Positions 33,761 through 44,472 of a stretch of 64,000 bases of DNA are shown piece after piece. The stretch lies in the NCBI RefSeq assembly GCF_017255185.1, contig NZ_JAFKCZ010000007.1, forward strand, positions 62,001 to 126,000, written 5' to 3'. Under the pieces are notes generated by a model, which worked only from the letters and a program-made list of their open reading frames with translations, had not been told where the DNA came from and made no database searches. The stretch's first letter is position 1. Each line of letters starts with the position of its first letter. Position numbers and translations under genes: made by a program. This stretch comes from Parahaliea mediterranea (GTDB taxonomy: Bacteria; Pseudomonadota; Gammaproteobacteria; Pseudomonadales; Halieaceae).

Positions 33761-34549
33761 ATGGTGTGGTCGACACAGGCCTTTGGCGAACGCTACGGCC
33801 CCTGGGCAGTGGTCACCGGCGCCTCCGCCGGCATCGGTCGCGAGTTTGCGCGGCAACTGGCGGACCTGGGCCTCAATCTTTTACTGGTGGCCCGCCGCGA
33901 GCCCGAGCTGGCCGCCCTCGCCCGCGACCTGCAACAGGGCCACGGCATTCTGGCGCGAGTGCTGGCGACGGACCTATCGCAGGCGGAGGGACTGGCCAAA
34001 CTGCTGCGGACCATCGACACGCTGGAGGTCGGCCTGCTGGTCAATAACGCCGGCGCCCCCAGCTTTCACGGCCACTTCGCCTCGCGGACCTGGTCCGCGG
34101 TGGCGGACACCCTGTACTTCAACACCCAGGTGCAGTTGCGCCTGATTCACCACCTGCTGCCCTCACTGCTGGAGCGGGGGCGCGGCGGAATTATCCAGGT
34201 CAGCTCCATCACCGGGCACACGCCGGTGCCCTACATGGCCGAGTACGCCGCCTGTAAGGCCTACCAGCTGGCGCTGGGCGAATCCCTGCACGTCGAATTG
34301 CGCGACCGGGGCGTGGATGTGCTGGTGCTGAGTCCGGGCGCCACCCGCTCCGAACGGGTCGATTTCGGCATGCACCCGCGGCCGGTGGCACGTGCCGCCA
34401 TCAATGGGTTGGGCAAGCTACCGAGCGTGGTGCCCGGCCGCCTCAATCGCTGGAGCGCGTTTCGCTTTCGACACCTCGATTCACGCCGCCGGGCGCTGTG
34501 GCGCATGGGCCGCTTCCAGTCCCGCCGACTGGAACCGGCGGGAGAGTAA
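33761..34549 (+). CDS. Short-chain dehydrogenase/reductase
   Basis: A 262-residue NAD(P)-dependent oxidoreductase of the classical SDR type. The cofactor motif is VVTGASAGIGREFA, the structural motif is NNAGAP, and the catalytic triad is Ser in VSSITGH with Tyr-Lys in YAACKAY. The arginine-rich C-terminus (WRMGRFQSRRLEP) is unusual. It lies 107 bases ahead of the five-gene catabolic operon on the same strand and may belong to it. Confidence 0.88.
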   Translation: MVWSTQAFGERYGPWAVVTGASAGIGREFARQLADLGLNLLLVARREPELAALARDLQQGHGILARVLATDLSQAEGLAKLLRTIDTLEVGLLVNNAGAPSFHGHFASRTWSAVADTLYFNTQVQLRLIHHLLPSLLERGRGGIIQVSSITGHTPVPYMAEYAACKAYQLALGESLHVELRDRGVDVLVLSPGATRSERVDFGMHPRPVARAAINGLGKLPSVVPGRLNRWSAFRFRHLDSRRRALWRMGRFQSRRLEPAGE

Positions 34550-34656: not shown

Positions 34657-35850
34657 ATGGACCGCTACCTTATTGTTTCCACCGATGGCCACGCGGGCCT
34701 GCCGATGGAGGGCTATCGGGACTTCGTCGAAGCGCGTTTCCACGAGGCCTTCGACAAGGCCCTGCCCGTGCAGCGGGAGATGACCCGCAAGGCCGAGGAA
34801 AAATTCCTCATTTCCGACTTCAACGATAACTGGCGCCGGGGCATCGAGGACGACCTGGCCGGCGCCTGGGACGGCGCCGTGCGCAACCGTGTCATCGACG
34901 CGGACGGCGTGGCGGCGGAAGTCCTGTTTCCCGACGGAATCACGGAAATGAATGCGCCGCCCTTCGGCGCCGGCCTCGGCCTGCGCCCCTGGGGGGTGGA
35001 CCCGCAGTTGCAGTGGGCCGGCGCCCGCGCCCACAACCGCTGGATCGCCGAGTTCTGCCGCGAGGACCCGGACCGTCGTATTGGCTTGGCTATCGTGCTG
35101 ATGCTCTACGATGTGGACCAGGCGCTGAAGGAAGTGCAATGGGCCTATGACAATGGCCTGAAGGGTATCCTGATCCCCGCGCTGATGGGCGACCACGACC
35201 CCTACAACCACCCCAAGTACGACCCCATCTGGGCCTTCTGCCAGGACCACGGCATGGTCGTCCACACCCACTCCGGCCCCTCCCCGGACTACAACTTCGA
35301 CCTGCCCGGCGCGGTGGGCGTCTACCTCACCGAGTTCGCCTGGTGGGCCAGCCGCCCCCTGTGGCACATGATCTTCGGCGGCGTGTTCGAGCGCTTCCCC
35401 CGCCTGCATTTCGTCATCACCGAAGTCAGCGAATTCTGGATTCCCCACCTGCTGGAACTGATGGACGTGCGCGCCTCGGTCAAGCACACCAGCGGCAAAC
35501 TGGGTGATTTCCGCAGCAACCTGACCCTGAAACCGAGCGAATACTTCCGCCGCAACTGCTGGGTGGGCGCCTCGGCCCTGTTCGACGAAAGTTCCACCGC
35601 GGTGCGCCACGACATCGGCATCAACAACGTCATGTGGGGCACCGACTATCCCCATCCGGAGGGGTCCTGGCCCCACACCCGGCAAAAACTGCGCGAGTTT
35701 TTCACCGGCATGCCGCCGGCGGAAATCGAGGCGATCCTGGGCGGCAACGCGGTGGACTGCTACCACCTTGACCGCGCCCGGCTCGACCCGATCGCCGCCC
35801 GGGTCGGCCCCCTGCGCAGCGACTACGCAACCACCGCGGGAGCAGCCTGA
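34657..35850 (+). CDS. Amidohydrolase-2 family metal-dependent hydrolase
   Basis: A 397-residue TIM-barrel enzyme of the group that includes ACMSD, LigW and LigY, which carry out decarboxylation or C-C/C-N hydrolysis of ring-cleavage products. Metal-site segments are VSTDGHAGLP near the N-terminus, VVHTHSGPSPD, HFVITEVSE and the terminal MWGTDYPHPEGSW. The N-terminal motif is D-G-H rather than H-x-H. It is the first gene of a tight operon; its stop overlaps the Rieske start by one base (TGATG). Confidence 0.85.
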   Translation: MDRYLIVSTDGHAGLPMEGYRDFVEARFHEAFDKALPVQREMTRKAEEKFLISDFNDNWRRGIEDDLAGAWDGAVRNRVIDADGVAAEVLFPDGITEMNAPPFGAGLGLRPWGVDPQLQWAGARAHNRWIAEFCREDPDRRIGLAIVLMLYDVDQALKEVQWAYDNGLKGILIPALMGDHDPYNHPKYDPIWAFCQDHGMVVHTHSGPSPDYNFDLPGAVGVYLTEFAWWASRPLWHMIFGGVFERFPRLHFVITEVSEFWIPHLLELMDVRASVKHTSGKLGDFRSNLTLKPSEYFRRNCWVGASALFDESSTAVRHDIGINNVMWGTDYPHPEGSWPHTRQKLREFFTGMPPAEIEAILGGNAVDCYHLDRARLDPIAARVGPLRSDYATTAGAA

Positions 35851-36848
35851 TGAATGCCAGATTTCCAATGCCAATCCCCGTGGGCTGGTACTGCGTGGGC
35901 TTCGCCGACGAACTCGCCGTGGGCGAAGTGCGCAACATCCACTACTTCGATCGCGACATGGTGCTGTTTCGCACCGAAAGCGGCGCCGTCGGCCTGGTCG
36001 ATCCCGCCTGCCCCCATCTCGGCGCGCACCTGGGCCACGGCGGGGTTGTGGTGGGCGAATCGATCCGCTGCCCCTTTCACCACTGGCAGTACGACCGCCG
36101 GGGCATGGTGACCGATATCCCCTACGCCAAGGCCATTCCCCCCCGGGCGCGGGACCAGGCCTGCCTGCGCACCTACCCGGTGACCGAAGCCAACGAGGTC
36201 ATCTGGGCCTGGTACCACCCCGACAACGCGCCGCCGCCCTACGAGGTGATCGAACTCGACGAGCTACGGGACCCCGAATGGGTGGAACAGGAGCGCTACT
36301 TCTGGAGCTTCAGCTCCCACCCCCAGGAAATCGCCGAGAACGGCGTGGACGTGGCCCACTTCAAGTACGTGCACCGCATGGAAGCGGTGCCAGAGGGGGA
36401 GACCCGCTACGACGGCCACATCCGCCGCAGCCGGGTCAGCGGCCGGCGCAAGGTCACCGACGCCAGCGGCCGTGAAATCGAGATCGATTCCTCGGTGGAA
36501 GTGGTGCAGAACGGCGCCGGCCAGAAGTGGACCCGCTTCAAGGGGCTGGTGGACTACCTGCTGCAGGTGCTGGTGACGCCGGTGAACGGCGAACAGGTCG
36601 AGGTCCGCTTCGCCTATACCCACCGGCGCTATCCCGAGGACTCCTTCGAGTACCAGGCACTGCGCCAGGCCATCGCCAATACCAATGGCCAGAGCGGCCT
36701 CGAGGGCGATATCCCGATCTGGCACAACAAGTTCCACCTGACCGAGCCCCTGCTGTGTGACGGCGACGGCCCGGTGATGCGCTTTCGGCGTTATTTTTCG
36801 CAGTTTTACCCCGCGCCGGAACCGGCGCCCGTTGTCCGAGGAGAATAA
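35850..36848 (+). CDS. Rieske non-heme iron oxygenase, KshA-like
   Basis: A 332-residue terminal oxygenase. The [2Fe-2S] Rieske centre has the exact CxH-x17-CxxH spacing at residues 54-77 (CPHLGAH, then CPFHHW). The mononuclear iron site shows Asp167, His170 and His175 in GVDVAHFKYVH. The stretch IPYAKAIPPRARD and NAPPPYEV resembles 3-ketosteroid 9-alpha-hydroxylase KshA as I recall it. No ferredoxin reductase partner is encoded nearby. The substrate is unknown; a steroid- or terpenoid-like ring is an inference. Confidence 0.9.
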   Translation: MNARFPMPIPVGWYCVGFADELAVGEVRNIHYFDRDMVLFRTESGAVGLVDPACPHLGAHLGHGGVVVGESIRCPFHHWQYDRRGMVTDIPYAKAIPPRARDQACLRTYPVTEANEVIWAWYHPDNAPPPYEVIELDELRDPEWVEQERYFWSFSSHPQEIAENGVDVAHFKYVHRMEAVPEGETRYDGHIRRSRVSGRRKVTDASGREIEIDSSVEVVQNGAGQKWTRFKGLVDYLLQVLVTPVNGEQVEVRFAYTHRRYPEDSFEYQALRQAIANTNGQSGLEGDIPIWHNKFHLTEPLLCDGDGPVMRFRRYFSQFYPAPEPAPVVRGE

Positions 36849-36852
36849 GACC

Positions 36853-37677
36853 ATGGCTCAATTACGTTACGTTCGCGACCCATCCCGCACCGCGCCCCCC
36901 CGCCCCGGCCTCGACTGCACCGTGACCTCCCTGCGCTGCGTCTACGAAACCGACCCGGCGATACACGCGGCGCTGTTGCCGGCGCCACTGGAGCCCAGTG
37001 CCGAACCCCGGATCTTCATCCAGCACGCCAATGTCGCCATGCATGTCAGCGACGACAAGACGGTGGAAATCGGCGCCGCGACTGTGGGCGTGAAGTGCCG
37101 CTACGGCGACACCGAGGGCCACTACGTGCTGGCCATGCCGATGCACGGCGAGTTCGTGGTGATCGGCGGTCGCGAGCGTTTCGGCGAGCCCAAGAAAATC
37201 GCCGAAGTCGCAACGATGGAGCGCAACGGGGACACGGTGCGCACCCGCATCGCACGCCACGGCATTACCTTCCTGGAGATGGCCGGGGAAGTGGGCGAGC
37301 CACTGCCGACACCGGAACCCTTCACCGAGTACTTCTTCTGCCACAAGGCGCTGCCGCGCATCGATGGCGAACCGGGATTCGATGGCAGCGTGTTCCTGAC
37401 CCGGCTCAACTGGGAGCGCAATTACGAGAGCGTGCACCAGGTCAACAATGCCGAAGTGATCCTGCGCGACAGCCCCTACGACCCGCTGGTGGACGTCCCG
37501 GTCAAGCGCATCGTCACCATGCAGCTGGCTCGCGGCGCCACCCGCACCAGTGGCCAGGTCCTGGCGGAAATTCCCGGCGACAACCTGGTGAATTTCATCC
37601 ATCAACGCTACGACGACATCGACATACCGGCGCTGGAGATCGACGGGGCTGCGCGGGGTCTCGCGGCCAATGGATGA
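36853..37677 (+). CDS. Acetoacetate decarboxylase family protein
   Basis: A 274-residue ADC-fold protein. The catalytic Lys pair appears as FGEPKKIAEV (Lys114-Lys115), at the same position as in clostridial acetoacetate decarboxylase, so Schiff-base chemistry on a beta-keto acid or related aldol reaction is likely. The ATG at 36853 follows GAGGAG closely. The gene starts four bases after the Rieske stop and overlaps the next SDR by eight bases, so it is part of the operon. Confidence 0.85.
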   Translation: MAQLRYVRDPSRTAPPRPGLDCTVTSLRCVYETDPAIHAALLPAPLEPSAEPRIFIQHANVAMHVSDDKTVEIGAATVGVKCRYGDTEGHYVLAMPMHGEFVVIGGRERFGEPKKIAEVATMERNGDTVRTRIARHGITFLEMAGEVGEPLPTPEPFTEYFFCHKALPRIDGEPGFDGSVFLTRLNWERNYESVHQVNNAEVILRDSPYDPLVDVPVKRIVTMQLARGATRTSGQVLAEIPGDNLVNFIHQRYDDIDIPALEIDGAARGLAANG

Positions 37678-38533
37678 TTTGCGTGGCAAGACCGCCGTGG
37701 TCACCGGCGGCGCCTCCGGCGTCGGCCACTGCCTGTGCCGGCTATTTGCCGAGCAGGGCATGCGGGTGGCGATGGTGGACGTGGAGGCCGGACGCCTAGC
37801 CGGCGCGGCACAGACACTGCGCGAAGCGGGCCTGGCGGTGGTCGACATGCAGGCCGATGTCACCGACCCGGACGCCATGGACGCCCTGGCGCAACGCGTG
37901 GCCGCGGAGCTGGGCCCGGTTCATGTACTGTGCAATAACGCCGGCGTCGGTATCAAGGAGGCCCAGCGCCGCATGTGGACACTCACCCCCAATGACTGGA
38001 CCTGGGGCTTCAATGTCAACGTACACGGCATCGCCAACGGCATTCGCGCTTTTGTGCCCGGCATGCTGGCCCACGGCGAGGCCGGGCATGTGGTCAATAC
38101 CTCCTCCGGCAACGGCGGCCTGACCTCCCTGCCGACCACCCCGATCTACGCCGCCACCAAGGCGGCGGTGACCAGCATGAGCGAGGTGCTGCACTACCAG
38201 TTCCTGATGGAGGGAGCCGCGCTGCAGGCCCATGTCCTGTTCCCCGGCCCCCACGTGGTAAACACCAATATCCTCAACTCGATGCGCAATCGGCCGGCGG
38301 CGCTGCGCGACGACGAGGAGACGCCGGCCTATGTCAGCATGCGCGACCTGCTCCAGGCCTCGGGCATTGCCGACCCACAGCTCACCGAACCCGAAGAGGT
38401 GGCGGCAACCTGCCTGGAGGGCATGCGGGCGGGCCGGTTCTGGATACTGCCAGGGCATTCCGCCCAGGACGACAAAATACAAAAGCGCACCGGGGACATC
38501 CTCGCGCGCCGCAACCCGACACTGCCGGAGTAA
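37670..38533 (+). CDS. Short-chain dehydrogenase/reductase of the catabolic operon
   Basis: A 287-residue SDR with VVTGGASGVGHCLC (cofactor), VLCNNAGVG, Ser in NTSSGNGG and YAATK for catalysis. Asp in VAMVDVEAGRL after beta-2 predicts NAD preference. It probably oxidises an alcohol intermediate of the pathway. It is translationally coupled to the decarboxylase gene by an 8-base overlap. Confidence 0.88.
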   Translation: MDDLRGKTAVVTGGASGVGHCLCRLFAEQGMRVAMVDVEAGRLAGAAQTLREAGLAVVDMQADVTDPDAMDALAQRVAAELGPVHVLCNNAGVGIKEAQRRMWTLTPNDWTWGFNVNVHGIANGIRAFVPGMLAHGEAGHVVNTSSGNGGLTSLPTTPIYAATKAAVTSMSEVLHYQFLMEGAALQAHVLFPGPHVVNTNILNSMRNRPAALRDDEETPAYVSMRDLLQASGIADPQLTEPEEVAATCLEGMRAGRFWILPGHSAQDDKIQKRTGDILARRNPTLPE

Positions 38534-38538
38534 AGCCC

Positions 38539-38925
38539 ATGGCCAGCAAACTGGGACAGTACTGCATTACCGTATCCGACCTCGAGCGCTCGGTGGCCTT
38601 CTACCGGGACATACTGGGGCTGCAGGACCTGCAGCGCATCTCCATCCCCGGCGCCGAGGAAGCGATCCTCGGCTCGCCGGGCTCGGACGGCCGCATCCAG
38701 CTCGCCCAGCGGGAATCGGTAACCGGCCCCATCGATCATGGCAACGCGCTGTGGAAGCTGTATCTCTACTGCGACGACGCCCGCGCGGTGCACAACGCCG
38801 CGGTCGCCGCCGGGGCGCCCTCGGACATGGCACCCGCACGCCTGGAGGGCTGGCCGGTGATCGCCGCCTTCATTCGCGACCCGGACGGTTACGCCATAGA
38901 GATCCTGCAACGGCTGGAAGCCTAA
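38539..38925 (+). CDS. VOC family protein with degenerate metal site
   Basis: A 128-residue glyoxalase-fold protein: ITVSDLERSVAFYRDILGL at the N-terminus and IRDPDGYAIEILQ at the C-terminus. The Glu ligand of the last strand is present. The first strand reads LGQYCITVSD where His is usual, and the third-module His is replaced in LWKLYLYCDD, so classical metal chelation looks impaired. It is the last gene of the operon, five bases after the SDR, and may be an isomerase or binding protein. Confidence 0.8.
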   Translation: MASKLGQYCITVSDLERSVAFYRDILGLQDLQRISIPGAEEAILGSPGSDGRIQLAQRESVTGPIDHGNALWKLYLYCDDARAVHNAAVAAGAPSDMAPARLEGWPVIAAFIRDPDGYAIEILQRLEA

Positions 38926-39043: not shown

Positions 39044-39973
39044 TCAACGGGCGCGGGGCCGCTCGAGGAATTTTTCCGAATGCGGGCTCAGGTTGCGCCC
39101 GATGTACAGGGTGAGAAACTCGATAAAATAACGCACCTTGGCGGACAAATGCCGGCTGTGCGGGTACACCGCCCAGGTCTCCCGCTCGTAGTGGCTCCAG
39201 TCCTGGTGCTGCAATTTGACCAGCTCTCCCCTGTCCACCGCCTCCTGCACGTAGAAATCCGGCAGCTGCGCCACGCCGATACCGGCCTTGGCCGCCGCCA
39301 GCAGGGTGGCGCCGTCCTCGCTCAACCAGTTGCCCCCGACCTTGACCTTCAGGGTGTCGCGGCCGTCGGGGGTGTTGAACAACCAGAAACGGTCCGAGGT
39401 GGTAAGGCAGTTGTGCTGTTTCAGATCCTCGGGGCAAGCCGGTTTGCCGCGGCTCTGCCAGTAGCCCGGCGCGGCGCACAGGCAGAGGGAGTAGGAGCCC
39501 AGCTTGCGGGCGATCAGGCTGGAATCCTCCAGCTTGCCGTAGCGCACCGTGAGGTCAAAGCCCTCTTCCAGCAGGTCGACATCCTTGAAACTGGAGTGCA
39601 CCTCCACCGAGAGGTCCGGGTATTCCCGGGAAAAGGCCGCCACCACGCTGGCCATGTACTGCACCCCGTAGCGGCTGTTGATCGATAGCTTGAGGGTGCC
39701 CCGGGGAGCCAGCTGCAAATCCGACAGGGTCGATTCCGCCTGGTCGAACTGCTCCGCCATGGCCTTGCAATGACCATAGAACACCTCGCCAATCTCGGTG
39801 AGCGTGAGCCGCCGGGTCGTGCGCTGGAGCAGGCGCACCCGCAAGCGGTCCTCCAGCTGGCTGACCTGCTTGCTGACATAGGATTTGGACACCCCGAGCC
39901 GGTCGGCGGCGGCAGTGAAGCTGCCCGCCTCCACCACACAGATATATTCCTCGATGCCTTCCCAGCGTCCCAT
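39044..39973 (-). CDS. LysR family transcriptional regulator
   Basis: A 309-residue regulator. The N-terminal winged helix spans about residues 1-65 (AGSFTAAADRLGVSKSYVSK) and the periplasmic-binding-like effector domain follows from about residue 90. The ATG at 39973 yields the usual LysR N-terminus MGRWEGIEEYI. It sits between the catabolic operon (convergent) and the TonB-dependent receptor (upstream, same strand), so it is the likely local regulator. The inducer is unknown. Confidence 0.88.
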   Translation of the reverse strand: MGRWEGIEEYICVVEAGSFTAAADRLGVSKSYVSKQVSQLEDRLRVRLLQRTTRRLTLTEIGEVFYGHCKAMAEQFDQAESTLSDLQLAPRGTLKLSINSRYGVQYMASVVAAFSREYPDLSVEVHSSFKDVDLLEEGFDLTVRYGKLEDSSLIARKLGSYSLCLCAAPGYWQSRGKPACPEDLKQHNCLTTSDRFWLFNTPDGRDTLKVKVGGNWLSEDGATLLAAAKAGIGVAQLPDFYVQEAVDRGELVKLQHQDWSHYERETWAVYPHSRHLSAKVRYFIEFLTLYIGRNLSPHSEKFLERPRAR

Positions 39974-40131
39974 AAGCCTTCCACCCGATGACGGCGGATT
40001 CAGCATACGCGCGGCTCCGGTCCAGGCAAAGCCCATTTCCCTCGGGTTTGGTGAGTCATGTTGTCCCATGGCGATGTGTTACGTGAGGCCGGCATCGACC
40101 TCCGCCCCCGCGGAGTTCGTTGCGCCGCGTG

Positions 40132-40159
40132 GCGCGGCGGCTCAAGACGACCGCCGCGC
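40132..40159 (-). terminator. GC-rich hairpin after the TonB-dependent receptor gene
   Basis: GCGCGGCGG and CCGCCGCGC flank a 10-base loop about 25 bases past the receptor stop. No T run follows, so confidence is low. Confidence 0.35.
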
Positions 40160-40184
40160 GCCCGGCACCGGGCGGAGTGCCCTG

Positions 40185-42470
40185 TCAGAAGTCGTAGTTC
40201 ACCTCGATTCCGTAACTGCGCGGGTCGGCCCACTGGTTCACGGTGAACACGGACAGGTTGATCGCGCTGTTCCAGTACTCCTCATCCGTCAGGTTACGGC
40301 CCCAGGCCGCCACGCGCAGGCGACCGTCGCCAACCGGGATCTGGTCGAGCTGCACCCGCGCGCCCAGCAGGCCGTAAGCATCCACGTTGGTGCTCGGGTC
40401 ATCGACGATATTGACGTAGAAATCGTCCTTCCAGGCATAATCGACCCGCGCCGACAGCTCGCCAAACGGGAGCGGGTCGAAGGTGTACTTGGCCGAGGCG
40501 AACACCGTGTTGCGCGGCGAGTAGGAGAAGTAGCGGTCGTCGGAGACATCGCTGCCGTCGTCGCCGGTAAAGTTGTCGTAAGCCGTGTCCAGGAAGGCGT
40601 AGTTCAGCACCAGGTCGAGGTTTTGGGTGGGGCGCGCGGTCAGCTCCATCTCCACCCCCTGCATGGTGGCGTCACCGGCATTGACGATAACGATAGTGAT
40701 CGCGTCTTCGCCCAGGCGGCCCGCCTGAAAGTCGGTGTAATCGTTGTAGAAGGCCGACACGTTGAACTGCACCCGCTGATCGAACAAGCGGCTTTTCAGG
40801 CCCAGCTCGTAGGTGGTCATGGTCTCCGGGTCGAAGGGTGTTTCAAAGGCGAGGTTGGTACTGGCCACGCCGTTGAAACCACCGCTCTTGAAGCCCGTGG
40901 CGACTTTCGCGTAACCATTGATGTCCTCGCTGAAACGCCAGGCCGCCACCACCATGGGGGTGATCTCGCTCCAGCTGTCGTCGACTTCGACGGGGATCAG
41001 GTCACCGCCCGCAGAAAACACCGGATTGCCCTGCGAATCGCGTACATAGACACCGCCATTGGGGTCTGCCGCATTGACGTCATAGACGCTGCGATCCACC
41101 CACACCGAATGCACATCCTTGGTTTCCCGTGTCCAGCGGGCGCCGACGGTCAGATCGAGCCGCTGCTCAAAGGCATCCGGCGTCCAGGTCAACTGGCCGA
41201 ACGCCGCCACCGACTCGTCCTTGGCGCCGCGGTTGCTGACGTCAAAATTGTCGCCGCCGAGCTGGAAAATCCAGCGCGGGTTGTCGGTGCTCCACTCATC
41301 CTCGTAGTAGAACAGGCCGAGCACATATTCCAGCCGGTCGGTGCTGCCGAGCAGCTGCACTTCCTGGGTGAACTGCTCGAAGTCGTTCTCGATGCGAAAG
41401 CGGAACATGTCCAGGCTGGTGCCGTCGAAATCCGAGAGGCTCAGGGTGTGCAGATCGCGGTAAGCGGTGATCGATTTCAGGGTGAGATCGCCCAGCGCCG
41501 TGCCGGGCATATCGTAGGTCACCGTCAGTGAGTGGCCCTCGATGTCCACCTCGCTCGTCTGGGCGCTGTCGTTGGCGATGGCATCGGGCCGGTCCTCGCT
41601 GGTCGCCGCGGCCACCAGCGGGTACAGCGGCGGAATCACATAGGCGAAGGTATCGGATTGGGTCAGCGCCAGCATGGTGGGGCGCTGCTGGGCGTCAAAG
41701 CGGTCGTAGCCGTACTCCAATAGCAGCCTGTCGCTCGGCTCGAGCCTCAGGTCCACCCGGCCGCCCCACTGGTCGCGGTTGTCGAAGTCCGGTTCGGAGG
41801 GGTCGGTATTGTCGTAGAAACCATCGCGCTCGCGGAAAAAACCCGACACCCGGGCGCTGAACTCACCCAGTCCACTACCCACCTGCCCCACCGCGGGCAG
41901 GTCCAGGGCGCCGCGGGCTTCGACCAGGTTCTCGTTGCCCGCTCCCACTTGCAGGTAGCCCTCCAGTTCGCCACTGGGCTTGCGCGTGACCAGGTTGATG
42001 GCGCCGCCGATGGTGTTCTTGCCGTAGAGCGTACCCTGCGGACCACGCAATACTTCCATCCGCTGCAGGTCAACGGCATCAAAAATGGCGCCGGAGGTCT
42101 TGGCGATGGGCACGCCATCCAGGTACAGGCCCACCGCGTTGTCGCGGCTCAGGTTGTTGGTGCTGTTCAACGCGCCGCGGATGCTGATAGTCGCGTTCAC
42201 CGAACCGCCCACCGTGGGCGCCACCATCAGGCCAGGGGTATAGTCGGAGATGCCCTCGATGTCCCGCGCGCGCAGTTCGCCGAGGGTTTCGGTGTTGAGC
42301 GCGGTAATGGCGATGGGCGTCTCCTGCAGGTTCTCCTCCCTGCGCTGGGCGGTGACGATCACCTCTTCCAGCGCCGCCTGCTGCGCCAGGGCCGGCGCGA
42401 CGTAGGCCGGCAACAGCGCGCCAACGGACAACAGGGACAGGGTGCGGGCAATATTATGTGGCTTGTACAT
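40185..42470 (-). CDS. TonB-dependent outer-membrane receptor
   Basis: A 761-residue outer-membrane protein. The signal peptide ends at APALA (about residue 29). A TonB-box-like LEEVIVTAQRREENL follows, then a plug domain (about residues 45-165, with VLRGPQGTLYGKNTIGGAIN) and a beta-barrel ending in the typical aromatic VNYDF. It resembles the large marine/sphingomonad receptor groups that take up varied organic substrates as well as siderophores. Its coding end overlaps the MFS gene by 17 bases, so the two are probably one uptake unit. Confidence 0.92.
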   Translation of the reverse strand: MYKPHNIARTLSLLSVGALLPAYVAPALAQQAALEEVIVTAQRREENLQETPIAITALNTETLGELRARDIEGISDYTPGLMVAPTVGGSVNATISIRGALNSTNNLSRDNAVGLYLDGVPIAKTSGAIFDAVDLQRMEVLRGPQGTLYGKNTIGGAINLVTRKPSGELEGYLQVGAGNENLVEARGALDLPAVGQVGSGLGEFSARVSGFFRERDGFYDNTDPSEPDFDNRDQWGGRVDLRLEPSDRLLLEYGYDRFDAQQRPTMLALTQSDTFAYVIPPLYPLVAAATSEDRPDAIANDSAQTSEVDIEGHSLTVTYDMPGTALGDLTLKSITAYRDLHTLSLSDFDGTSLDMFRFRIENDFEQFTQEVQLLGSTDRLEYVLGLFYYEDEWSTDNPRWIFQLGGDNFDVSNRGAKDESVAAFGQLTWTPDAFEQRLDLTVGARWTRETKDVHSVWVDRSVYDVNAADPNGGVYVRDSQGNPVFSAGGDLIPVEVDDSWSEITPMVVAAWRFSEDINGYAKVATGFKSGGFNGVASTNLAFETPFDPETMTTYELGLKSRLFDQRVQFNVSAFYNDYTDFQAGRLGEDAITIVIVNAGDATMQGVEMELTARPTQNLDLVLNYAFLDTAYDNFTGDDGSDVSDDRYFSYSPRNTVFASAKYTFDPLPFGELSARVDYAWKDDFYVNIVDDPSTNVDAYGLLGARVQLDQIPVGDGRLRVAAWGRNLTDEEYWNSAINLSVFTVNQWADPRSYGIEVNYDF

Positions 42471-43860
42471 AGTCGACTCCTTTGTCCCCGGAGGGAGTAG
42501 TGTTCGAGTGAGAAAGCGCTTGCAGGTCGCGCGTCCGCTGCATGGCGTGTACCTGCTCCACGCAGCGGCGGTAATGCGGCAGGCCGAGCCAGAGGATCAC
42601 CACGATGGTGGGCGCGATCACGGCCGAGGCCAGCGCGATCGAATAGCGCAGGGCCGCGTCGTCGGCAAACACGAAATCGGTGAGCGCGGCGATCAGGCTG
42701 GCGCCGAAACCAATACCCAGGATGTTGACCAGGAACAGCATCACGGCCAGCATCTGCGCGCGCATCTCGTTGGGGGTAATTTCCATCAACGCGGCGGTGG
42801 TCACCCCCACCGAGACCTGCCCCAGGTAGGTGGCCACGGCCATGCACAGCAGCGCCAGTTCAGCGCTCGGCATCAGCGGCCCCACCACCAGTGGCAGGGT
42901 CTTGCACACCGCGGCGATCAGCATAACCCGCATATTGGCGTCGGCGTGGCCGCGGCGCATCAGGTGGCCGCTCAGCCAGCCGCCGCTGAGAATGCCGGCG
43001 GCGCCGCACAAGCCCATCACCAGTCCATAGGAATAGCCGGCACCACTGGCGCTCATGCCATAGGTGCGCATCAGAAAAGTCGGGTACCAGATGGCCGTGC
43101 CCACCGCCAGCATGCCGAGGAAGGCCACCGCCGAGAGATGCGCGCCGTAGGCCTGCCAGCGCTCGCGCATGTAGCCGCCGATCACGGCCAGCGGAATCCG
43201 CTCGCCCTCGGTGTCGTACATACGCTCCTGCCGTACCGGTTCGCGGAAGCTGAACATCAGTGCCGCAATCAACAGGCCCGGGAGACCGACGATAATAAAG
43301 GCCAGTTGCCAGGTGCGAAACGTACCCAGCCAGCCGAGTTGCACTTCGTCCACCCCGGCCAGCAATTCGAGCACCAGACCGCCGATGATCAACGCCAGCC
43401 CCCCGCCCACCGGATAGCCCAGGTGATACACGCTAAAGGCCATGGCGCGCCGCTCCGGCTTGAAACTGTCCGATATCAGCGAGGCCGCGGCGGGACTCAG
43501 GGCCGCCTCGCCGACGCCGACACCCATGCGCGCGACGAATAGCTGCCCGAAGGTCTTGGCCATGCCGCACAGGGCGGTCATCAGGCACCAGAAGACAATG
43601 CCGACGGCGATGATGCCGCGCCGGCTGCGGCGGTCGGCCACCCGCGCCAGCGGGATGCCGACCACCACGAACAGCAGGGAAAAGGCAAAGCCCTGGAGCA
43701 GGCTCACCTCGAAATCGGTCAGGCCGAGATCGGCGCGAACCGGCCCGACCAGCAGGGTCAATATCTGCCGGTCGATGGCGGAAAAGGTGTAGGCCAGAAA
43801 CAATACGGCTACGGTATACCAGGCCGCCGACACCGGCGGGTAGGCGTCGCGTTCGGACAT
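42454..43860 (-). CDS. MFS transporter (spinster-like)
   Basis: A 468-residue permease with 12 predicted helices. The family loop motif appears as GIPLARVADRRSRRGII, and ARMGVGVGEAALSPAAASLI with FSAIDRQILTLL at the N-terminus match the spinster-type MFS proteins commonly linked to TonB receptors in aromatic and terpenoid catabolism loci. It is the first gene of the MFS/receptor unit and overlaps the receptor start by 17 bases. Confidence 0.88.
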   Translation of the reverse strand: MSERDAYPPVSAAWYTVAVLFLAYTFSAIDRQILTLLVGPVRADLGLTDFEVSLLQGFAFSLLFVVVGIPLARVADRRSRRGIIAVGIVFWCLMTALCGMAKTFGQLFVARMGVGVGEAALSPAAASLISDSFKPERRAMAFSVYHLGYPVGGGLALIIGGLVLELLAGVDEVQLGWLGTFRTWQLAFIIVGLPGLLIAALMFSFREPVRQERMYDTEGERIPLAVIGGYMRERWQAYGAHLSAVAFLGMLAVGTAIWYPTFLMRTYGMSASGAGYSYGLVMGLCGAAGILSGGWLSGHLMRRGHADANMRVMLIAAVCKTLPLVVGPLMPSAELALLCMAVATYLGQVSVGVTTAALMEITPNEMRAQMLAVMLFLVNILGIGFGASLIAALTDFVFADDAALRYSIALASAVIAPTIVVILWLGLPHYRRCVEQVHAMQRTRDLQALSHSNTTPSGDKGVDYVQAT

Positions 43861-44472
43861 AGGCTCACTTAACTATTTTTATCGCATTGCCCGGCAATTT
43901 ATCCTACCGCCTCGCCGGCAATAAACGGCTGGCCAAGCAATGATTGTTTCCAGATGGGCGGCAATAACCTCATGCAAGCCCGGGGGAGGTTCCCGACCGG
44001 CCCCGGAATCGTAAAGGGGTCCGCGTCCGTTTACCAGGTTCGATCGGCCGCCGACATCCGCCGGTCGACCCCGCCATCGGCACCGGTATCGGCACCGGTA
44101 TCGGCATCGGCATCGGCATCGGCATCGGCATCGGCATCGGCATCGGCATCGGCATCGGCATCGGCATCGGCATCGGCGACCAGGTAGCCCCTGTCGGGTG
44201 GCCCGGCACAACCCGGAAGGAAATATTCATCAACGCCGGCGCCGAAACCGTGTACGCTGCGGTGGACGGCGACCCGGGGATAAACCGCCGACGGCCGAAT
44301 TATTCCCGCGACTCGGCAAAAAGCCCAAGGGGGCGCCTTCAGCCGGCGGGCATCGCGCCTGCCGGAACCGCAACCTGGTCTAGCGCCCCGGCAAAAGGTC
44401 TTGAAAGCCTGTCTCGGGCACGGCGGCGGAGCCGATACGGCGAACTGATACGCAATACAACAGGAGCGCGGC
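43861..44472. other. 612-base intergenic region holding a hexanucleotide repeat
   Basis: This divergent gap between the MFS transporter and the pentapeptide-repeat gene contains the tandem ATCGGC array at 44076-44177. Open frames across it are low-complexity (Pro-Met, Ala-Asp or Ser-Ala dipeptides) with no supported start or family match. No promoter with both consensus boxes was found. The downstream gene has a good AGGAG ribosome-binding site just before 44473. Confidence 0.5.
44076..44177. repeat. Hexanucleotide tandem repeat (ATCGGC)n
   Basis: Seventeen consecutive 6-base units. Units 1-5 alternate ATCGGC and ACCGGT, and the stretch from 44100 to 44177 is 13 perfect ATCGGC copies. Such long perfect arrays are prone to slippage. 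It is intergenic, about 295 bases upstream of the pentapeptide-repeat gene and 215 bases upstream of the MFS gene. Confidence 0.95.

Follow-up and report, generated by a model that had tools for sequence, protein, structure and literature searches.

We analysed a 64,000-nucleotide stretch of the Parahaliea mediterranea genome (contig NZ_JAFKCZ010000007.1, positions 62,001 to 126,000 of the forward strand), hereafter the window, in which five co-directional open reading frames on the + strand occupy positions 34657-38925. The first two genes overlap by 1 base and the third and fourth by 8; 4 bases separate the second gene from the third, and 5 the fourth from the fifth. These coordinates bear out the five packed genes and the spacing given in a preliminary description of this DNA. 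The genes, with the names used below and the evidence for each, are:

34657-35850, + strand: AHY, a PF04909 protein with a dinuclear-metal signature, probable monooxygenase of the PtmU3/AibH2 type (amidohydrolase-related dinuclear oxygenase, ARO); Pfam, PDB match, residues, fold
35850-36848, + strand: RIE, a Rieske oxygenase of 332 amino acids (aa) with a KshA_C domain; Pfam, alignment, residues, tree
36853-37677, + strand: ADC, acetoacetate-decarboxylase-like, with Schiff-base lysine K114 in a PKK motif; Pfam, alignment, fold
37670-38533, + strand: SDR, a short-chain dehydrogenase, probable alcohol/ketone dehydrogenase; Pfam, orthologues
38539-38925, + strand: VOC (glyoxalase-fold) protein, accessory; Pfam

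The Pfam E-values were 6.6e-30 for AHY (Amidohydro_2), 4.9e-19 and 1.6e-32 for the Rieske and KshA_C domains of RIE, 3e-34 for ADC (family ADC), 1.6e-40 for SDR (adh_short) and 4.2e-17 for VOC (Glyoxalase). A scan of the operon for promoters found none. We read the operon as an oxidative carbon-removal module, in which two unrelated metal-dependent oxygenases would act together with an SDR and a beta-keto-acid decarboxylase on a steroid-like (polycyclic terpenoid) growth substrate, and we give this reading close to even chances. The preliminary view is supported in that the module looks catabolic, has a Rieske oxygenase with a KshA domain and includes an ADC-like enzyme of the Schiff-base kind: the module is a real, conserved set, whose key enzyme, AHY, had been misjudged as a C-C enzyme. 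Computation established the protein families and catalytic residues, and likewise how the genes are linked and conserved.

AHY resembles dinuclear oxygenases

The preliminary description had assigned the amidohydrolase a C-C cleavage of the ACMSD/LigY type; sequence, fold and residue signature point instead to the PtmU3/AibH2 monooxygenases. The best sequence matches of AHY in the PDB were PtmU3 (9e-30), DitZ (1.5e-18) and 5-carboxyvanillate decarboxylase (1.5e-15), in that order. A predicted model built from 22 relatives, with a predicted local distance difference test score (pLDDT) of 84.3 and a predicted template modelling score of 0.88, matched the fold of PtmU3 at Z 35.0 (3.0 Å over 342 residues, about 25% identity); further fold matches were DitZ (Z 33.5), a chain of AibH1H2 (32.1), SfbO (32.1) and ACMSD (30.9).

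The residues D10, H12, H205, E256, D330, H333 and E335 of AHY are invariant in all 22 rows of an alignment that comprises 28 rows minus six plasmid rows (among them the unrelated amidohydrolase L056:15586 and L055:4315, which lacks the final acidic residue). In the full 28 rows D10, H205 and D330 are invariant and the other four signature positions are conserved in at least 90%. The residues from H205 to E335 align with PtmU3 residues of the same kind, E335 falling on PtmU3 E313 (counted on the alignment), while D10 and H12 were matched to AibH2 D25 and H27 by motif only, the PtmU3 alignment starting at residue 69. AHY carries the dinuclear ligand set of the AROs, the extra acidic residue included. 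The mononuclear-metal site of ACMSD and LigY has HxH or ExH at the N-terminus and no acidic residue after DxxH; AHY has DxH and DxxHxE. Aligned with AHY, a 5-carboxyvanillate decarboxylase lacks the DxxHx[DE] motif. As a motif control within the window genome, DxxHx[DE] was found in three of six plus-strand PF04909 regions (C5, C7 and C2:195202), with seven further regions outside this count. The ligands of the dinuclear site in AibH2 are D25, H27, H211, E265, D337 and H340, and the position of PtmU3 E313 and AibH2 D342 is, in the available text of the source, acidic only in binuclear members (PMC7782822). These features suggest that AHY is probably an O2-dependent dinuclear monooxygenase of the PtmU3/AibH2 type, not a hydrolase. 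ACMSD/LigY chemistry was rejected as first choice for AHY on the PtmU3 ranking, the fold and the residue signature.

We know of no Rieske-ADC-SDR operon for PtmU3, the diiron monooxygenase of platensimycin biosynthesis (PF04909). It is the nearest solved relative of AHY and shares its fold and, where aligned, its dinuclear residues, but it is biosynthetic, accepts CoA-linked diterpenoids (PMC7782822) and is only about 25% identical. The name amidohydrolase-related dinuclear oxygenases is that used in PMC10811679, where new AROs were found by their Rieske neighbours. Proteins like AibH2 usually stand beside a small Rieske ferredoxin (PMC10401708, PMC10811679), with a co-occurrence of 90% in the portion of PMC10401708 available, so the association is not universal. 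The AibH1H2-AibG-AibF system and SfbO resemble the present module in having a PF04909 oxygenase gene beside a Rieske protein (PMC10811679, PMC7782822). Their partner is a small Rieske protein, whereas the present module pairs AHY with a complete Rieske oxygenase that itself has a mono-iron site, and adds ADC and SDR.

RIE is a KshA-family paralogue by residues and tree

RIE keeps the cluster residues C54/H56/C74/H77 and the mononuclear-site residues D167/H170/H175/D287, presumably ligands, their roles being assigned by motif. In the underlying alignment 17 of 18 rows were counted; L053:8949, not a Rieske protein, was set aside, and the RIE of genome G031 was left out of both alignment and tree. 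RIE combines the Rieske CxH/CxxH motif with D-x2-H-x4-H in a KshA_C protein, the latter being the mono-iron motif of KshA, seen too in KshA alignments. By these residues RIE is a full Rieske oxygenase. A role as mere electron donor was ruled out, the mono-iron site being intact; RIE may have a double role as oxygenase and electron donor.

In a 30-row tree the module Rieske proteins form one clade (100/99), and three solved KshA proteins (PDB 4qdc, 4qdf and 2zyl) join another protein of the window genome, C4:291300, at 100/98. A 98/99 branch parts RIE from the solved KshA set, with long branches among the other rows, and RIE is 27-30% identical to the solved proteins. Because it lies outside the clade of characterised KshA, RIE is, on the tree, a KshA-family paralogue and not KshA; the tree ruled out a canonical KshA identity. 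Placing the oxygenase in a tree with KshA had been proposed in the preliminary description, whose label "KshA-like" stands for the shared KshA_C domain family and fails for the clade. KshA, a 3-ketosteroid 9alpha-hydroxylase, has the same Rieske plus KshA_C architecture but sits in this separate clade, and neither KstD nor KshB was recognised among the genes called beside the operon. The top NCBIfam match of RIE was SdmA, with a score of 59.5 bits that is far below the equivalog cut-off of 600 bits, and an SdmA identity was rejected on that ground; paralogues of the same genome match SdmA about as weakly.

Elsewhere in the window genome, a KstD-like gene (594.6 of 789 bits) lies beside a further KshA-like gene at C6 (L061:13786-16529). 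This pair and the protein that groups with the solved KshA (L072:6523-7572) are likely steroid-degradation genes of the window genome.

ADC has the fold and lysine of acetoacetate decarboxylase

K114 of ADC is invariant in all 19 rows of its alignment and aligns with K115 of PDB 3bh2 (counted on the alignment). K115 of acetoacetate decarboxylase we take to be the Schiff-base lysine. The window ADC and its closest relatives also have the second lysine of the PKK motif, which is not conserved in the other ADC type described below. The predicted model (pLDDT 77.5) matched four entries titled acetoacetate decarboxylase at Z 26.9-25.6 and the aldolase-dehydratases 6eej and 5upb at Z 24.5 and 24.3. 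A profile of the 19 rows found only three sequences at E <=0.001, all named ADC. With the ADC fold and the Schiff-base lysine of acetoacetate decarboxylase, ADC may be a beta-keto-acid decarboxylase, as far as alignment and model indicate.

The module is conserved among relatives

The survey set comprised 145 related genomes, the window genome (G000) included. Neighbourhood genes were called by tblastn of fetched stretches (9-23 kb), and absences are valid for these stretches; the gene caller mis-strands some genes, and the counts quoted rest on tblastn where possible. Orthologues of AHY (76-92% identity) occur in 15 of the 145 genomes, including the window genome, and those of RIE (67-84% identity) in the same 15, with the two genes adjacent in every one (tblastn). 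Because the two sets of orthologues coincide and are adjacent throughout, the grouping is not due to chance. The search for the same neighbourhood in other genomes, suggested at the outset, recovered the core AHY-RIE-SDR with an ADC-like gene in 15/15 module genomes. SDR orthologues (67-81% identity) are present in all 14 other module genomes, the G031 copy being cut by the contig end, and VOC was found in eight of the 15, window genome included. The ADC-like gene is of two types: the window type (69-84% identical) in five genomes and another in ten, which is only 21-23% identical to the window ADC. Two dissimilar types fill the same slot, as if the activity were needed.

Further away, a contig of a Deltaproteobacteria metagenome-assembled genome (UBA12015, L034) carries RIE (35% identity), AHY (51%), ADC (42%) and SDR (43-45%) homologues side by side. 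In samples of 368 other genomes of the class and 397 other genomes of the phylum there was no match to the window ADC (E 1e-25) or to the window AHY (E 1e-80), respectively; outside the family, the gene set is rare at these strict limits. On plasmids, ADC homologues occur in 14 records, with no amidohydrolase- or Rieske-annotated gene in the four stretches examined. PF04909 relatives occur in 202 plasmid records, and three of the five stretches examined have neither an HsaA-annotated neighbour nor a small Rieske protein. On plasmid pDND3A of Rhodococcus gordoniae (L055:8818-15500) genes for an AHY homologue, a VOC protein and an SDR adjoin one annotated as HsaA; an actinobacterium thus shows a comparable HsaA/AHY association. 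On a plasmid of the haloarchaeon Haloterrigena sp. KLK7 (L094:6971-8442) a PF04909 gene overlaps a small Rieske gene, the arrangement described for AibG.

Parallel cassettes

The window genome has three PF06314 genes in all, each near a KshA-domain Rieske gene. The three cassettes are AHY-RIE-ADC-SDR-VOC (C7, the window operon), AHYb-RIEb-SDR-ADC (C5, L035:10193-14285) and P450-RIE-ADC-TonB-SDR (C1, L060:6712-13358). AHY genes 48-54% identical to the window AHY occur in many related Halieaceae genomes, and at least 67 of 76 near-full-length AHY genes (at least 48% identity, 145 genomes) have an ADC gene within 4 kb. The set of 76 omits five partial matches (two in G043, two in G082 and one in G019), and the neighbourhood counts, which use 150 listed matches each for Rieske and ADC, are lower bounds.

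Among the matches listed, Rieske and ADC genes occur without AHY in 16 places, one of them the C1 cassette of the window genome; 12 of the other 15 were fetched. A P450 (68-84% identity) stands beside RIE and ADC in 11 of these 12 loci, and none of the 12 yielded an AHY gene. The P450 in the place of AHY lends independent support to an oxygenase role for AHY, and the two may be functionally equivalent. In the PDB the nearest protein to the C1-cassette P450 is EpoK; no single steroid P450 could be assigned as its counterpart.

These arrangements suggest a wider scheme, speculative and in our view somewhat unlikely, in which Halieaceae would hold parallel carbon-removal cassettes. The first oxygenase (two dinuclear amidohydrolase-fold types or a P450) would be interchangeable, and a non-KshA Rieske protein, a Schiff-base decarboxylase and usually an SDR would be constant. 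AHY and RIE would work in tandem, AHY possibly drawing electrons via RIE, and the cassettes would amount to a new way of catabolising marine sterols or terpenoids, by demethylation or decarboxylation.

Genes adjoining the operon

Four genes flank the operon:

33761-34549, + strand: upstream SDR, probable extra member of the unit, 107 bases before AHY; orthologues elsewhere upstream of AHY
39044-39973, - strand: LysR-type regulator, convergent with the operon; orthologues in module genomes
40185-42470, - strand: TonB-dependent receptor, probable substrate uptake; Pfam, conservation
42454-43860, - strand: MFS transporter (weak OATP similarity), probable uptake; Pfam, conservation

The upstream SDR has orthologues (50-72%) before AHY in seven of the 14 other module genomes, or 8/15 with the window genome; in G045 and G081 the ADC gene sits between the two. 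The preliminary extent of five genes is correct for the genes it names and slightly too narrow, the upstream SDR probably belonging to the set. LysR orthologues (65-90%) were found in the fetched stretches of 12/14 other module genomes (13/15 with the window genome). The four other genomes with the window ADC type have both the TonB receptor (68-88%) and the MFS transporter (69-91%), and the LysR, TonB and MFS genes (39044-43860, - strand) adjoin the operon in four genomes with that type. Just upstream of the MFS gene lies a hexanucleotide tandem repeat of about 17 copies of CATCGG (window 44075-44177).

No CoA ligase, thiolase or reductase was recognised among the genes called beside the operon, in line with the preliminary description. 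Its suggestion of a front-end module fits too, several relatives carrying ring-cleavage-type genes beside the module.

Substrate class

In the fetched stretches around the module, HsaA-like genes occur in seven of the 15 genomes, HsaD-like in six and HsaC-like in three; arylsulfatase-like genes are near the module in six (best arylsulfatase model score 126.4 of 481 bits) and DUF3604 genes in nine. Neighbour families were checked on representatives from G045 and G069. In G045 (L042:4010-12284) one co-directional run reads HsaA-HsaD-HsaC-SDR-ADC-AHY-RIE-SDR-VOC, and the same run is present in G081; among NCBIfam families, HsaA, HsaC and HsaD give the G045 neighbours their highest scores. The HsaA/HsaC/HsaD system of steroid ring degradation is represented by homologues that adjoin the module in several relatives, although these score below the family cut-offs and are absent beside the window operon. 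In Parahaliea aestuarii a separate cluster (L067:8283-18999) holds HsaC-, HsaA-, LysR-, DUF3604-, sulfatase- and P450-type genes, its LysR being 75% identical to the window LysR.

Growth on cholesterol has been shown for one Halieaceae isolate (PMC5790920). The testosterone-induced 100-kb steroid cluster of Comamonas testosteroni contains kshA and a gene labelled "amidohydrolase" (PMC10637631). Amidohydrolases also appear in steroid transcriptomes (PMC4881515, PMC9782250, PMC12882949), one of them overexpressed about 21-fold on cholate (PMC12882949); in the text available from these sources the protein family is unnamed, and none is tied to AHY. On the gene neighbourhoods, we favour a steroid-like substrate for the module.

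Proposed mechanism

The reactions below, their order and the class of substrate are all inferred. AHY, as an O2-dependent C-H monooxygenase with a dinuclear metal site (Fe2 or Mn/Fe), would insert oxygen, and RIE would act as a Rieske mono-iron oxygenase on the same skeleton. SDR would oxidise an alcohol, whether newly formed or there from the start, and the resulting ketone would neighbour a carboxyl group (or a methyl oxidised to carboxyl). ADC would then form a Schiff base with the SDR-made ketone, and the neighbouring carboxylate would be lost as CO2. An example would be C-4 demethylation of a substrate of the 4-methyl-sterol type, in which the methyl becomes a carboxyl, the 3-OH a 3-keto group, and CO2 is lost. 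In relatives the product may enter ring cleavage of the HsaA/HsaC/HsaD type encoded next door; in the window genome it would need HsaA- and HsaC-like genes located elsewhere in the genome. LysR would provide control, and the TonB receptor and MFS transporter uptake.

The nearest chemical precedent is bacterial sterol C-4 demethylation by SdmA/SdmB/SdmC (PMC10202945). SdmA and SdmB resemble the module in pairing a Rieske oxygenase with an SDR and in decarboxylation next to a C-3 ketone; they differ in being biosynthetic, no ARO or ADC is described with them in the available text of PMC10202945, and the match of RIE to SdmA is weak. In the open-licence literature searched, no pathway was described for a set of amidohydrolase, KshA/Rieske and acetoacetate decarboxylase or HsaC, nor was this gene set described in work on Halieaceae steroid degradation or on PtmU3 and the AROs, which agrees with the earlier remark that the exact set is not a described pathway.

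Alternative readings

Several observations weigh against the carbon-removal reading. The gap in Z between PtmU3 and the decarboxylases is modest, with the uncharacterised 4dzi at 33.0, and AHY has no small Rieske ferredoxin (the adjacent Rieske gene encodes the 332-aa oxygenase) and no reductase recognised alongside. Seven of the 15 module genomes yielded no VOC (the G031 contig stops within SDR), and nine of the 76 AHY genes have no ADC within 4 kb among the matches listed. In G120 (G120:C282, L105:243-2036) a Rieske-ADC pair stands without P450 or AHY on a contig that reaches 2.3 kb upstream, and a first oxygenase is therefore not essential to the pair. As to the substrate, the HsaA-, HsaD- and HsaC-like scores in G045 are below the NCBIfam cut-offs (347.7 of 450, 170.7 of 400 and 305.2 of 450 bits), and the ring concerned may therefore be a non-steroid one. 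At E 1e-40, 89 of the 145 relatives have HsaA-like genes, so that adjacency and linkage, not presence, constitute the evidence. No hsa-like gene was found in window positions 27-50 kb; the HsaA-like gene of the window genome, C4:477270, scores 384 of 450 bits and lies away from the operon, and its HsaC-like C12:142695 fits a biphenyl-diol dioxygenase better (268.6 versus 251.3 bits). ADC-fold enzymes, finally, can also be aldolase-dehydratases (Z 24.5).

The last point underlies a reading in which ADC would resemble Swit_4259 and, as an aldolase-dehydratase or retro-aldolase, cut a side chain or ring, the module performing aldol C-C cleavage instead of decarboxylation. The same fold and Schiff-base lysine do serve 6eej and 5upb, but the four acetoacetate decarboxylase entries score higher, the ADC profile finds only sequences named ADC, and the second PKK lysine is shared by the window ADC and its nearest relatives (the other ADC type does not keep it); we consider an aldolase unlikely. 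About as improbable is that AHY belongs with the mononuclear-metal C-C hydrolases and decarboxylases of the LigY, ACMSD or LigW type and acts after ring cleavage, with RIE the sole oxygenase. Membership of PF04909, the presence of 5-carboxyvanillate decarboxylase and ACMSD among the sequence and fold matches, and AHY homologues beside HsaA/HsaC-like genes, including on the Rhodococcus plasmid, would all suit such an enzyme. The invariant dinuclear signature would not, nor would the lack of the DxxHx[DE] motif in 5-carboxyvanillate decarboxylase, the first ranks of PtmU3 and DitZ, the HsaD-like hydrolase already present in the G045 and G081 clusters, or the P450 that replaces AHY in the parallel cassette. 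A more serious contender, possible though well short of even chances, is that the module degrades a non-steroid substrate (a diterpenoid, a meroterpenoid or a sulfated aromatic) and that its steroid-like genes only reflect shared families. The nearby arylsulfatase-like and DUF3604 genes, the sub-threshold Hsa-like matches, the place of RIE outside the characterised KshA clade and the action of PtmU3 in diterpenoid biosynthesis (PMC7782822) are consistent with it; HsaA, HsaC and HsaD nevertheless remain the best-scoring families for the G045 neighbours, and RIE carries a KshA_C domain.

Significance

The family of dinuclear oxygenases with an amidohydrolase fold is young, and few of its substrates are known. 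The conserved linkage described here ties one probable member to a Rieske oxygenase, a putative decarboxylase and steroid-type ring genes, and thereby to a testable substrate class. If the carbon-removal reading is true, many marine genes annotated as "amidohydrolase" would be oxygenases of sterol or terpenoid breakdown, and the removal of methyl or carboxyl carbon from the nucleus in marine sterol degradation would be directly testable in cultured Parahaliea.

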